Below, one piece after another: positions 8,229 to 28,573 of a stretch of DNA of 64,000 bases (within the stretch, counting starts at the first letter, position 1; every line of letters starts with the position of its first letter). Below the pieces are notes generated by a model. The model was not told the origin of the DNA and did not search any database. It saw only the letters and a program-made list of their open reading frames with translations. Source of the DNA: Aestuariispira ectoiniformans (lineage in GTDB: Bacteria > Pseudomonadota > Alphaproteobacteria > UBA8366 > Aestuariispiraceae); the NCBI RefSeq assembly GCF_025136295.1, contig NZ_CP062788.1, positions 3,675,588 to 3,739,587 of the forward strand, read 5' to 3'. A program made the translations under genes and the position numbers.

Positions 8229-10562
8229 TTACTTCTTGAGGGCCTTGGCGAAGGCCGCCGCCATTGCGCCATCGGCAGCAGGGGCGGCTCCTTTGCCTGA
8301 TGGTTTATTCGGTCCGCGACCGGGCTTGCCGCCCTGTTTGGGCCGGTTGTCCCGGCGGTCTTGCTTCGGCTTCGCCGCCTGGCCCGGCTGGTCCCCCATA
8401 CGCATGGTCAGCGAGATGCGCTTGCGCGGCACATCCACTTCCAGGACTTTCACCTTCACCACGTCGCCCGGCCGCACCACCTCGCGCGGGTCCTTGACGA
8501 ATCGGTCGGCCAGCATGGACACATGAACCAGCCCGTCCTGATGGACGCCGACATCGACAAATGCACCGAAATTAGCCACGTTGGTCACGACACCTTCCAG
8601 CATCATGCCGGGTTTCAGATCCTTGATCTCATTGACGCCATCCTGGAAGGTTGCGGTCTTGAATTCCGGACGCGGGTCGCGGCCCGGCTTGTCCAGTTCC
8701 GCCAGAATGTCACGAACAGTGGGTTCACCGAAATTCTCGTCTGTAAAGTCGGCGGCCTTCAGGCCGCGCAGGGTCTGCGTATCGCCCAGCAGCGCCTTGA
8801 TATCCACTTTGGTGCTGGCCAGAATCTTTTTCACGACCGGATAGGCCTCCGGATGCACAGCCGAACGGTCCAGCGGGTTATCGCCATTCATGACGCGCAG
8901 GAAGCCCGCGGCCTGTTCAAAGACCTTCGGACCAAGGCGTGGTACGTCCTTGAGCGATTTCCGGGTGGCAAAAGCGCCATGGGCATCGCGATAGGCGACA
9001 ATGCCTTCCGCCAGGCTCTGCCCCAGACCGGAAACCCGCGCCAACAGAGGGGCGGAGGCCGTATTCACGTCCACACCCACGGCGTTCACACAGTCTTCCA
9101 CCACCGCATCCAACGCCTTGGACAATTTGAACTCGCTGACATCATGCTGATACTGGCCGACACCAATGGATTTCGGGTCGATCTTCACCAATTCCGCCAG
9201 CGGGTCCTGCAGGCGCCGCCCGATGGAGGCCGCGCCGCGCAGGGATACATCCACATCAGGGAATTCGCGAGAGGCATATTCGGAAGCGGAATAAACCGAG
9301 GCCCCGGCCTCGGACACCATAATCTTGGTTGCTTTCAGTTCGGGATGTTTCTTGATCAGTTCCGCCGCCAGTTGGTCCGTCTCGCGCGACGCGGTGCCGT
9401 TGCCGATGGAAATCAACTCCACCTTATGCCGCAGACAAAGGGCGGCCAGCACAGCAATGGACTGATCCCATTGGCGCTGCGGCTCATGGGGATAAATCAC
9501 AGCGGTATCAACCAATTTGCCGGTGGCATCGACCACGGCCACCTTAACCCCCGTTCGGAAACCGGGGTCGAGCGCCAGCGTCGGACGCTGTCCGGCAGGC
9601 GCTGCCAGCAGCAAGTCACGCAGGTTTTCCGCAAAAACGCGGATCGCCTCTTCTTCCGCGGCTTCCCAGAGACGGCGCATCAGTTCCAGTTCAATGAAGA
9701 GAGACAGTTTCACCCGCCAGGCCCAGCGCGCCGTATCCGACAGCCATTTATCCGCCGCCCGTCCCTGGTCCTTCAACCCGAAATGATGGGCAATCTTCAA
9801 CTCGCAAGGATGCGGGGCGGTCTTGTCTTCCGGATCGCCGACAACGAGAGAGGCTTGCAGTACCTCTTCCTTACGGCCCCGGAAAATCGCCAGCGCCCGA
9901 TGCGAGGGAACGGATTTCAGCGGTTCGGAATAATCGAAATAATCGGCGAATTTGGCACCGTCCTTTTCCTTGCCGTCGATGACCTTGGAAACCAGTTTGG
10001 CCTCGTCCCAGACATAATCACGCAGCTTGCCGACCAGTTCGGCATCCTCGGCAAAACGTTCCACCAGAATCTGGCGCGCACCGTCCAGCGCTGCCTTGAT
10101 GTCCTCAACACCTTTCTCTGCGTCGATATATTTCTCCGCTTCGGTTTCCGGTGTCAGGGTCGGGTCGTTGAACAGATTGTCGGCCAGCGGCTCCAGCCCC
10201 GCCTCGCGCGCGATCTGCGCCTTGGTGCGGCGTTTGGGCTTGTAGGGCAGATACAGGTCTTCCAGACGCGCCTTGGTATCGGCGGTCATGATATCCTTCC
10301 GCAATTCGTCGGTCAGTTTGCCCTGCTCGTCGATGCTTTTCAGGATCGTCTGGCGGCGATCTTCCATTTCCCTGAGATAGCCCAGCCGTGTTTCCAGCGT
10401 ACGAAGCTGTGCATCGTCCAGACCGCCGGTCACCTCCTTACGGTAACGGGCGATAAAGGGCACTGTCGCCCCGCCATCCAACAGATCGACGGCGGATTGC
10501 ACCTGTTGCTCGCGGACCTGCAATTCGGTGGCAATGGTTTGGGAAATGGACATCAAAGACAT
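8229..10562 (-). CDS. tex: Tex family RNA-binding transcription accessory protein
   Basis: A 777-residue Tex/YhgF protein, the usual length. The N-terminal helical region holds [17 protein letters not shown], characteristic of Tex. The RNase H-like YqgF domain begins near [17 protein letters not shown] (about residue 330). Helix-hairpin-helix repeats follow ([16 protein letters not shown] and APKVFEQ-like region), then an S1 RNA-binding domain ([20 protein letters not shown], about residue 650). The tail is basic and Gly/Lys-rich. Tex binds nucleic acid and affects transcription and stress tolerance. The gene is divergent from hrpB. Two close ATGs (10562 and 10553) are possible starts. Confidence 0.93.
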
Positions 10563-13208: not shown

Positions 13209-13293
13209 AAATCCCGGCCTGCGCCGGGACGAGCGGCGTTTCTATCTGATATATTGCCCCTTATTCCGCTCATCCCGGCGCAGGCCGGGATCT
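13209..13293. repeat. Inverted pair of REP-like palindromes
   Basis: Two oppositely oriented copies of one element, 13209-13236 and 13266-13293, are complementary over about 28 bases with two mismatches and are separated by 29 bases. Each also contains an internal palindrome (CCCGGCCTGCGCCGGG). The unit could fold as one long hairpin and may also end transcription of hrpB. A third copy lies at 13650-13675. This element type, close to GATCCCGGCCTGCGCCGGGA, is a familiar dispersed intergenic repeat in alphaproteobacteria. Confidence 0.8.
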
Positions 13294-13311
13294 CGCGTAT
13301 CTCACATGAGA

Positions 13312-13596
13312 TCACAATAGTTCACTCGCCAAATCTCGCCAATCCGGGTTCAATTCTTCGATTAGTCGGATCTTCCAACTGCGTTTCCAGTTTTTGATAC
13401 ACCGTTCGCGAATAAACGCGCTTTCACGCGATGGGTGACTTTCATGCCAGACCAACTTTTCGCAATTGTATTTGTCCGTGAAGCCGGCAAGCATGTGGTT
13501 CCGATGCATCCAGGCTCGCCGGTTGATATCATCCGTCATCCCGGTATAGAGAATGCCATTGGGCTTGTTTGCCATGATGTAAACAAAGAAAGCCAT
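13312..13596 (-). CDS. GIY-YIG domain endonuclease-like protein
   Basis: A 94-residue protein that is almost entirely a GIY-YIG nuclease domain: VYIMANKPNGILYTGMT at the N-terminus (the two Tyr-containing strands), followed by an Arg pair in DDINRRAW and a Glu-rich helix RESAFIRERCIKNWKR. It belongs to the short group often mislabelled UvrC-like or YhbQ-like. An in-frame ATG at 13647 would add 17 residues without domain sequence; 13596 is preferred, with GGAGA 10 bases upstream. REP-like palindromes bound the gene on both sides. A link between the nuclease and the palindromes is possible but unproven. Confidence 0.82.
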   Translation of the reverse strand: MAFFVYIMANKPNGILYTGMTDDINRRAWMHRNHMLAGFTDKYNCEKLVWHESHPSRESAFIRERCIKNWKRSWKIRLIEELNPDWRDLASELL

Positions 13597-13649
13597 CGTC
13601 CCATTCTCTCCATCCCATGTTTTGCTCTTCCCCCACGCGAACCGCATGA

Positions 13650-13675
13650 GATCCCGGCCTGCGCCAGGATGAGCG
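13650..13675. repeat. Third REP-like palindrome copy
   Basis: This copy has the same sequence and orientation as the copy at 13209-13236, with the central CCGGGA changed to CCAGGA. It lies upstream of the GIY-YIG gene, so that gene is bracketed by copies. Confidence 0.75.
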
Positions 13676-13739
13676 GGTTTATGAGATGTTTTGACGGGAA
13701 ACGAACGCCTTAATGGTCAAAGCCATGACCGCCCTTAAT

Positions 13740-19200: not shown

Positions 19201-19238
19201 AAGAAAAAGCGGGAAAGGCTTTCACCTTTCCCGCTTTG
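19201..19238 (-). terminator. Intrinsic terminator of the OmpA-type gene
   Basis: On the minus strand a 13-base-pair stem (19226-19238 with 19207-19219, arm AAAGCGGGAAAGG) with a 6-base loop is followed by a T-rich run (TTTTTCTTT). It lies 22 bases past the stop of the OmpA-type gene. Confidence 0.9.
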
Positions 19239-28545: not shown

Positions 28546-28573
28546 AGGCGGCAGAAGTAATCTTCTGCCGCCT
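28546..28573 (-). terminator. Terminator between ctlX-like gene and hydroxyproline epimerase gene
   Basis: A perfect 12-base-pair stem (28546-28557 with 28562-28573, arm AGGCGGCAGAAG) with a 4-base loop. On the minus strand it is followed by CTTTTTTATT, a good T-run, so it terminates the epimerase transcript. It may also act weakly on the plus strand for the convergent gene. Confidence 0.85.

Follow-up and report, generated by a model that had tools for sequence, protein, structure and literature searches.

A GIY-YIG nuclease gene bounded by REP palindromes in Aestuariispira ectoiniformans, and a probable enzyme partner for CGTC-class repeats

The GIY-YIG gene and its palindromes

The analysed window, a stretch of 64,000 nucleotides of the A. 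ectoiniformans genome, contains a small GIY-YIG nuclease gene that is intergenic, lying between an 838-aa and a 215-aa ORF, and is accompanied by three copies of a 26-nt palindrome (Table 1). The sequence-only reading of this DNA, which placed two inverted copies downstream of the gene and one upstream, is borne out by the coordinates. The protein has 93 residues; the longest ORF of the gene, open to position 13647, comprises 111 aa. The three copies differ in one or two bases, and no further copy within seven mismatches was found in the 64 kb. Copies 1 and 2 form an inverted, REPIN-like dimer which, as single-stranded DNA, folds into one hairpin (-36.4 kcal/mol, z -8.05); copy 3, with its mismatched stem, folds weakly (-4 kcal/mol). 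Two long hairpins elsewhere in the window, at 19206-19237 (stem 13) and 28546-28573 (stem 12), are unlike the REP and are probably terminators.

Table 1. Positions in the window of the GIY-YIG gene, the REP copies and the unit that they bound
Feature	Position	Strand	Remarks
REP copy 1	13211-13236	+	downstream of the GIY-YIG gene; stem 7, loop 4; tag rightward, facing copy 2
REP copy 2	13266-13291	-	downstream of the GIY-YIG gene; stem 8, loop 4; tag away from gene
GIY-YIG nuclease gene	13312-13593	-	93 aa from ATG at 13593; Ssn-type subfamily
REP copy 3	13651-13676	+	upstream of the GIY-YIG gene; one stem mismatch; tag away from gene
REP-bounded unit (dimer, gene, single REP)	13212-13693		homologous unit at ~1,657,530-1,658,020, 2.0 Mb away

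The palindromes resemble the CGTC-tagged REPs, mainly of Alphaproteobacteria, that were defined by Di Nocera et al. 2013 and include dRS3 of Neisseria and RPE-4 and RPE-6 of Rickettsia (PMC3733652). Members of this class, apparently without a dedicated transposase, have a CGTC tag (or its variants TGTC and CCTC) unpaired at one end, a stem of 8-9 that begins with AT, a loop of 4 (family 1) or 5 and a CCA tail, and they form inverted dimers (PMC3733652). The window REP resembles them in the tag unpaired at one end, the stem of 8 (copy 2), the loop of 4, AT at the stem foot and the inverted dimer. However, its tags read CCGCTCAT or CCGCTCGT, with GCTC in place of the canonical CGTC, and in copy 2, whose stem of 8 is ATCCCGGC and whose loop is of 4, the tail is CTC where CGTC REPs have CCA.

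The encoded protein matches the Pfam GIY-YIG family with 48.8 bits (cut-off 22.6) and no other family; a search of NCBIfam gave no match, and its paralogs score below the cut-off there. Tyr5, Tyr16, Arg26 and Glu63 are invariant, and the catalytic residues are intact in the window protein. An AlphaFold2 model (pLDDT 95.5) displays the GIY-YIG fold; the closest solved folds are those of UPF0213, Slx1 and UvrC domains, and the nearest structure is that of the UPF0213 protein BH0048 (1zg2). The HUH motif and catalytic tyrosine of IS200/IS605 transposases are absent, family and fold being GIY-YIG instead. The label 'homing-type' in the sequence-only reading is misleading, since this is a short stand-alone protein lacking the additional DNA-binding domain that homing enzymes carry. 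I-TevI-like homing endonucleases have such a separate domain and lie in an intron, an intein or an allele-specific site, whereas the window protein is a single domain of 93 aa encoded between genes. Assignment to a defence or phage gene was rejected, the paralogs giving only weak partial matches to PADLOC PDC-S14 and weak ones to phage homing endonuclease families.

A gonococcal relative, which we take to be Ssn, shares 52% identity with the window protein (91% of the query aligned), and its surroundings contain 16 ATTCCC-N8-GGGAAT repeats in 3.2 kb. The window protein presumably belongs with the Ssn nucleases, enzymes that cleave repeat sequences in single-stranded form. Chenal, Veyrier and colleagues reportedly described Ssn in Nature Communications in 2025 as site-specific nucleases of the GIY-YIG family which cleave single-stranded DNA at Neisseria repeats; their study is said to comprise thousands of homologues, each with its own targets, and to show a role in Neisseria transformation. 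The repeats around the gonococcal gene agree with the pairing of Ssn and target that has reportedly been shown in Neisseria. The two proteins are alike in being short stand-alone GIY-YIG enzymes, and the gonococcal gene lies in repeats of the CGTC-1/dRS3 type; however, it is in Neisseria that the activity, the target and a part in transformation have been reported, and the tag of the window REP is GCTC.

REP-bounded units in the genome

The genome, assembled as one contig of 4.36 Mb, contains five PF01541 genes, namely UvrC and four small ones. All four small genes have hairpins on both sides, which belong to three types: CCCCTGCG.AGGCAGGGG, GGCCGnnCTTGnnnCGGCC, and the window type, common to the window gene and the fourth gene (at 1,657,773), which is frameshifted. 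The two other types carry the tags CGTCAC/TGTCAC and CGTCAT; they are also rare, with two copies of each at its gene. Genome-wide REP counts come from pattern searches. The window type occurs in 25 places with up to three mismatches (a control pattern gave none), and eight of the 25 adjoin the two GIY-YIG genes; the pattern was built from the window locus, which is thereby favoured in the ranking, while the second gene played no part in it. The frameshifted gene (L005; L113 ~9274-9420; genome 1657773-1657919) still lies amid five REP copies, so that REPs can outlast the gene.

The window unit and that of the fourth gene align over 496 bp with 72% identity. The alignment spans the interval from the first REP to 17 bases past the last one; outside it there are short REP-to-REP matches only. 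Homology thus runs from REP to REP and not beyond, which indicates that the gene and its REPs moved or were duplicated as one unit. A tandem gene-plus-REP copy was observed in G031 (L109 9153-9777, G031:C129), where two GIY-YIG genes about 400 bp apart have the same tagged hairpin before each.

These arrangements may point to an active mobiliser, with the nuclease nicking REPs and inserting or copying them elsewhere, the unit being autonomous, the dimers its MITE-like offspring and the enzyme a GIY-YIG counterpart of RAYT. This would agree with the two units homologous from REP to REP at unrelated sites of one genome, with the tandem copies in G031, and with one genus in which the REP dimer occurs about 100 times (>100 dimers) in G011, which has two genes, versus 2-4 times in G010 and G012, which have none. 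However, G004 carries 25-29 dimers and no gene, showing that REPs can survive loss of the gene or reach a genome by other routes, and the unit could also be copied by ordinary duplication or REP-REP recombination. A clean empty site, sought via the isochorismatase neighbour and via the neighbourhoods in G011, was not found: the former showed no synteny, and in G010 a regulator-like gene occupies the place. The loci compared for empty sites showed no target duplication, and GIY-YIG enzymes are not known to act as transposases. Active mobilisation is therefore regarded as possible but doubtful.

It is unlikely that the gene is a selfish homing-like element for which the REPs are merely insertion sites or recombination ends. 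Units in unrelated places, the existence of a frameshifted copy and the weak similarity that the paralogs show to homing endonuclease profiles would be compatible with this explanation, but the homing-type DNA-binding domain is absent, and many lineages carry the gene along with matching genome-wide REPs, which insertion alone would not predict.

Flanking repeats in related loci and genomes

Related proteins were examined in 80 loci from one-genome-per-species contigs, of which 75 were usable; they span Alpha-, Beta- and Gammaproteobacteria and records labelled Syntrophaceae, Desulfobacteria, Chloroflexi, Bacteroidetes, Ignavibacteria and others. Several plasmid-collection records, such as L195 (NZ_CP119140.1), are of chromosome size (2.2-4.9 Mb) and appear to be misfiled chromosomes. 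Within 50 bp of the genes there are 9-10 hairpins per kb, compared with 0.6-0.7 per kb beyond 1 kb. With flanking defined as a tagged hairpin within 200 bp of the gene, both-side flanking was found at 39 of the 75 genes and one-side flanking at 18, versus 6 and 121, respectively, of 814 control ORFs of the same loci (Fisher p 1e-40). Most of the flanking copies are of the canonical CGTC type, and in the commonest layout the tags point outward from the gene on both sides. A second sample, comprising 118 genes from genomes of the class, gave 61 genes flanked on both sides, 31 on one and 26 on none, with tagged hairpins declining from 6.3 per kb at 0-100 bp to 0.6 per kb at 400-1000 bp. For about one-fifth of the subfamily genes, the 200 bp on either side contain no tagged hairpin. 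A chance neighbourhood of repeat and nuclease gene was rejected on the counts in these two samples and has a negligible probability, since flanking was replicated in three samples and eight of the 25 sites in the genome adjoin two genes.

The third sample, from the order, was drawn with Pfam and so includes all GIY-YIG types, among them the three intact genes and the broken one of A. ectoiniformans. With the subfamily border at 70 bits to the Ssn-type (A2) profile, 18 of 19 subfamily genes are flanked, 13 of them on both sides, versus none on both sides, and two with one hairpin, among 22 other GIY-YIG genes (UPF0213-like, SLX1-like and other). Both-side flanking is restricted to one subfamily, and the possibility that all GIY-YIG genes are alike was ruled out by the UPF0213-like and SLX1-like genes. 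Proteins of the latter kinds, UPF0213 (YhbQ-like) and SLX1-like, have the same fold as the window protein; unlike the Ssn type, they have another C-terminal part, score 0-58 bits against the Ssn-type profile instead of over 70, and are never flanked on both sides.

The same data bear on the explanation that the REPs are ordinary terminators or repeats which accumulate near a gene that is small and either recently acquired or non-essential, without any action of the nuclease on them. REPs are generally located downstream of genes (PMC3733652), and one flanking hairpin is common at any gene, as in the 121 of 814 controls. However, both-side flanking is about 70 times commoner at subfamily genes than at other genes and was found at 2 of 204 small ORFs, other small GIY-YIG genes present in the same genomes are not flanked in this way, and the repeat type follows the protein even among the paralogs of one genome (17 of 23, see below). 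The explanation is therefore judged quite improbable.

The gene and the repeats are also associated among genomes. A genome was counted as having REPs when two general CGTC REP patterns gave at least one match; in a sample of 289 genomes of the class, this holds for 66 of the 93 genomes with the gene and for 35 of the 196 without it (OR 11, p 2e-18). One genome per family gave 28 of 37 versus 13 of 81 (OR 16, p 5e-10) and, for at least 10 copies, 17 of 37 versus 3 of 81 (OR 22), indicating that the association is not made by the flanking copies alone. Five genomes (G268, G261, G116, G205 and G183) have 44-186 matches to the CGTC REP patterns and no subfamily gene at E 1e-15; they may have lost the gene, carry one that was missed or rely on a different enzyme.

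Repeat type and the probable role of the nuclease

The flanking hairpins fall mainly into two loop classes, with 4-nt (GNAN) or 5-nt (such as CTTGT) loops, and the loop class tracks the protein lineage. Prediction from the three closest proteins encoded in other genomes gave the right class for 123 of 144 (base rate 74; the best among 1000 shuffles reached 93), and for paralogs in genomes carrying both classes it was right for 17 of 23 (p 0.017). The protein tree requires 19 changes of loop class versus about 48 with shuffled labels (minimum 41 in 100), and palindrome distance between genomes grows with protein distance (rho 0.24, permutation maximum 0.08). The REPs counted genome-wide correspond: at least three 4-nt-loop REPs were found in 16 of 17 genomes with only 4-nt-loop genes, and 5-nt-loop REPs in 2 of the 17, while among 27 genomes with only 5-nt-loop genes, 5 had 4-nt-loop and 18 had 5-nt-loop REPs.

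Since the same enzyme family is flanked by REPs in many genomes, with the repeat type tracking the enzyme, this GIY-YIG subfamily is probably the missing partner of the CGTC-class REPs. The proposal of the sequence-only reading that a GIY-YIG nuclease holds the place of RAYT among REPs is strongly supported by the clustering here and in relatives, the tracking of types and the REP-to-REP duplication; copies of the repeat gather at the small GIY-YIG genes in both settings and are neither equally dense everywhere nor missing from relatives. Both-side flanking, the duplication of the unit and the matching of types over many genomes are added by the present data. RAYT/REPtron and REPIN systems, with GTAG REPs and tyrosine transposases, similarly have the enzyme gene between inverted REPs of the genome's own family and inverted dimers elsewhere. 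However, the window enzyme is of the GIY-YIG rather than the HUH/tyrosine type, the tag differs, and REP mobilisation by it is hypothetical.

It is thus likely that the window gene encodes a stand-alone Ssn-type nuclease whose recognition sequence is the flanking CGTC-class REP, and we infer that the protein most likely recognises and cuts the window REP when single-stranded. A REP that becomes single-stranded during replication, DNA uptake or conjugation would fold, and the nuclease would recognise its tag and hairpin and then cut; each nuclease lineage would have its own REP type. The gene and the flanking REPs would represent a unit similar to the RAYT 'REPtron', persisting and occasionally duplicating together, and the scattered single and dimeric REPs would be its dependent copies. 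Cutting might spread the REPs, simply maintain them or restrict incoming DNA; their retention at the gene may come about through copying coupled to repair, through the unit being protected or through control over DNA uptake.

The CGTC REPs, widespread in Alphaproteobacteria, had no dedicated enzyme according to the 2013 description, and a gene family flanked by repeats of matched type names a candidate, making the question testable with purified proteins. A search of the literature for GIY-YIG proteins joined with REPs found no paper, the Ssn study lying outside the searched set; both the REP-bounded unit and a general connection with CGTC REPs may extend further than the Ssn work. The finding joins three fields, namely REPs, RAYT-like upkeep of repeats and Ssn nucleases, and many natural enzyme-target pairs are offered for sequence-specific cutting of single strands.

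The residues most informative on loop class are 57, 61, 65, 68 and 70 (window numbering), which in the AlphaFold2 model lie along one face of the Glu63-bearing helix and in the turn after it. Phylogenetically independent contrasts on single residues gave one supported pair with few supported branches, so that these specificity residues are a lead. A wider proposal is that throughout bacteria the CGTC REP superfamily has its missing dedicated enzyme in this subfamily and that the REP-bounded gene is a mobile unit spreading or copying REPs through cutting of single-stranded hairpins, with specificity from the helix face at 57/61/65 and the turn at 68/70; it is put forward tentatively and may well not hold as a whole. 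In one subclade the motif KxGSRxxK replaces KxWxRxWK (L127, L168, L169, L190, L356, L371, L380, L383, L387, L389 and others); 13 of its 15 genes have no CGTC REPs beside them, and the subclade may recognise another target.
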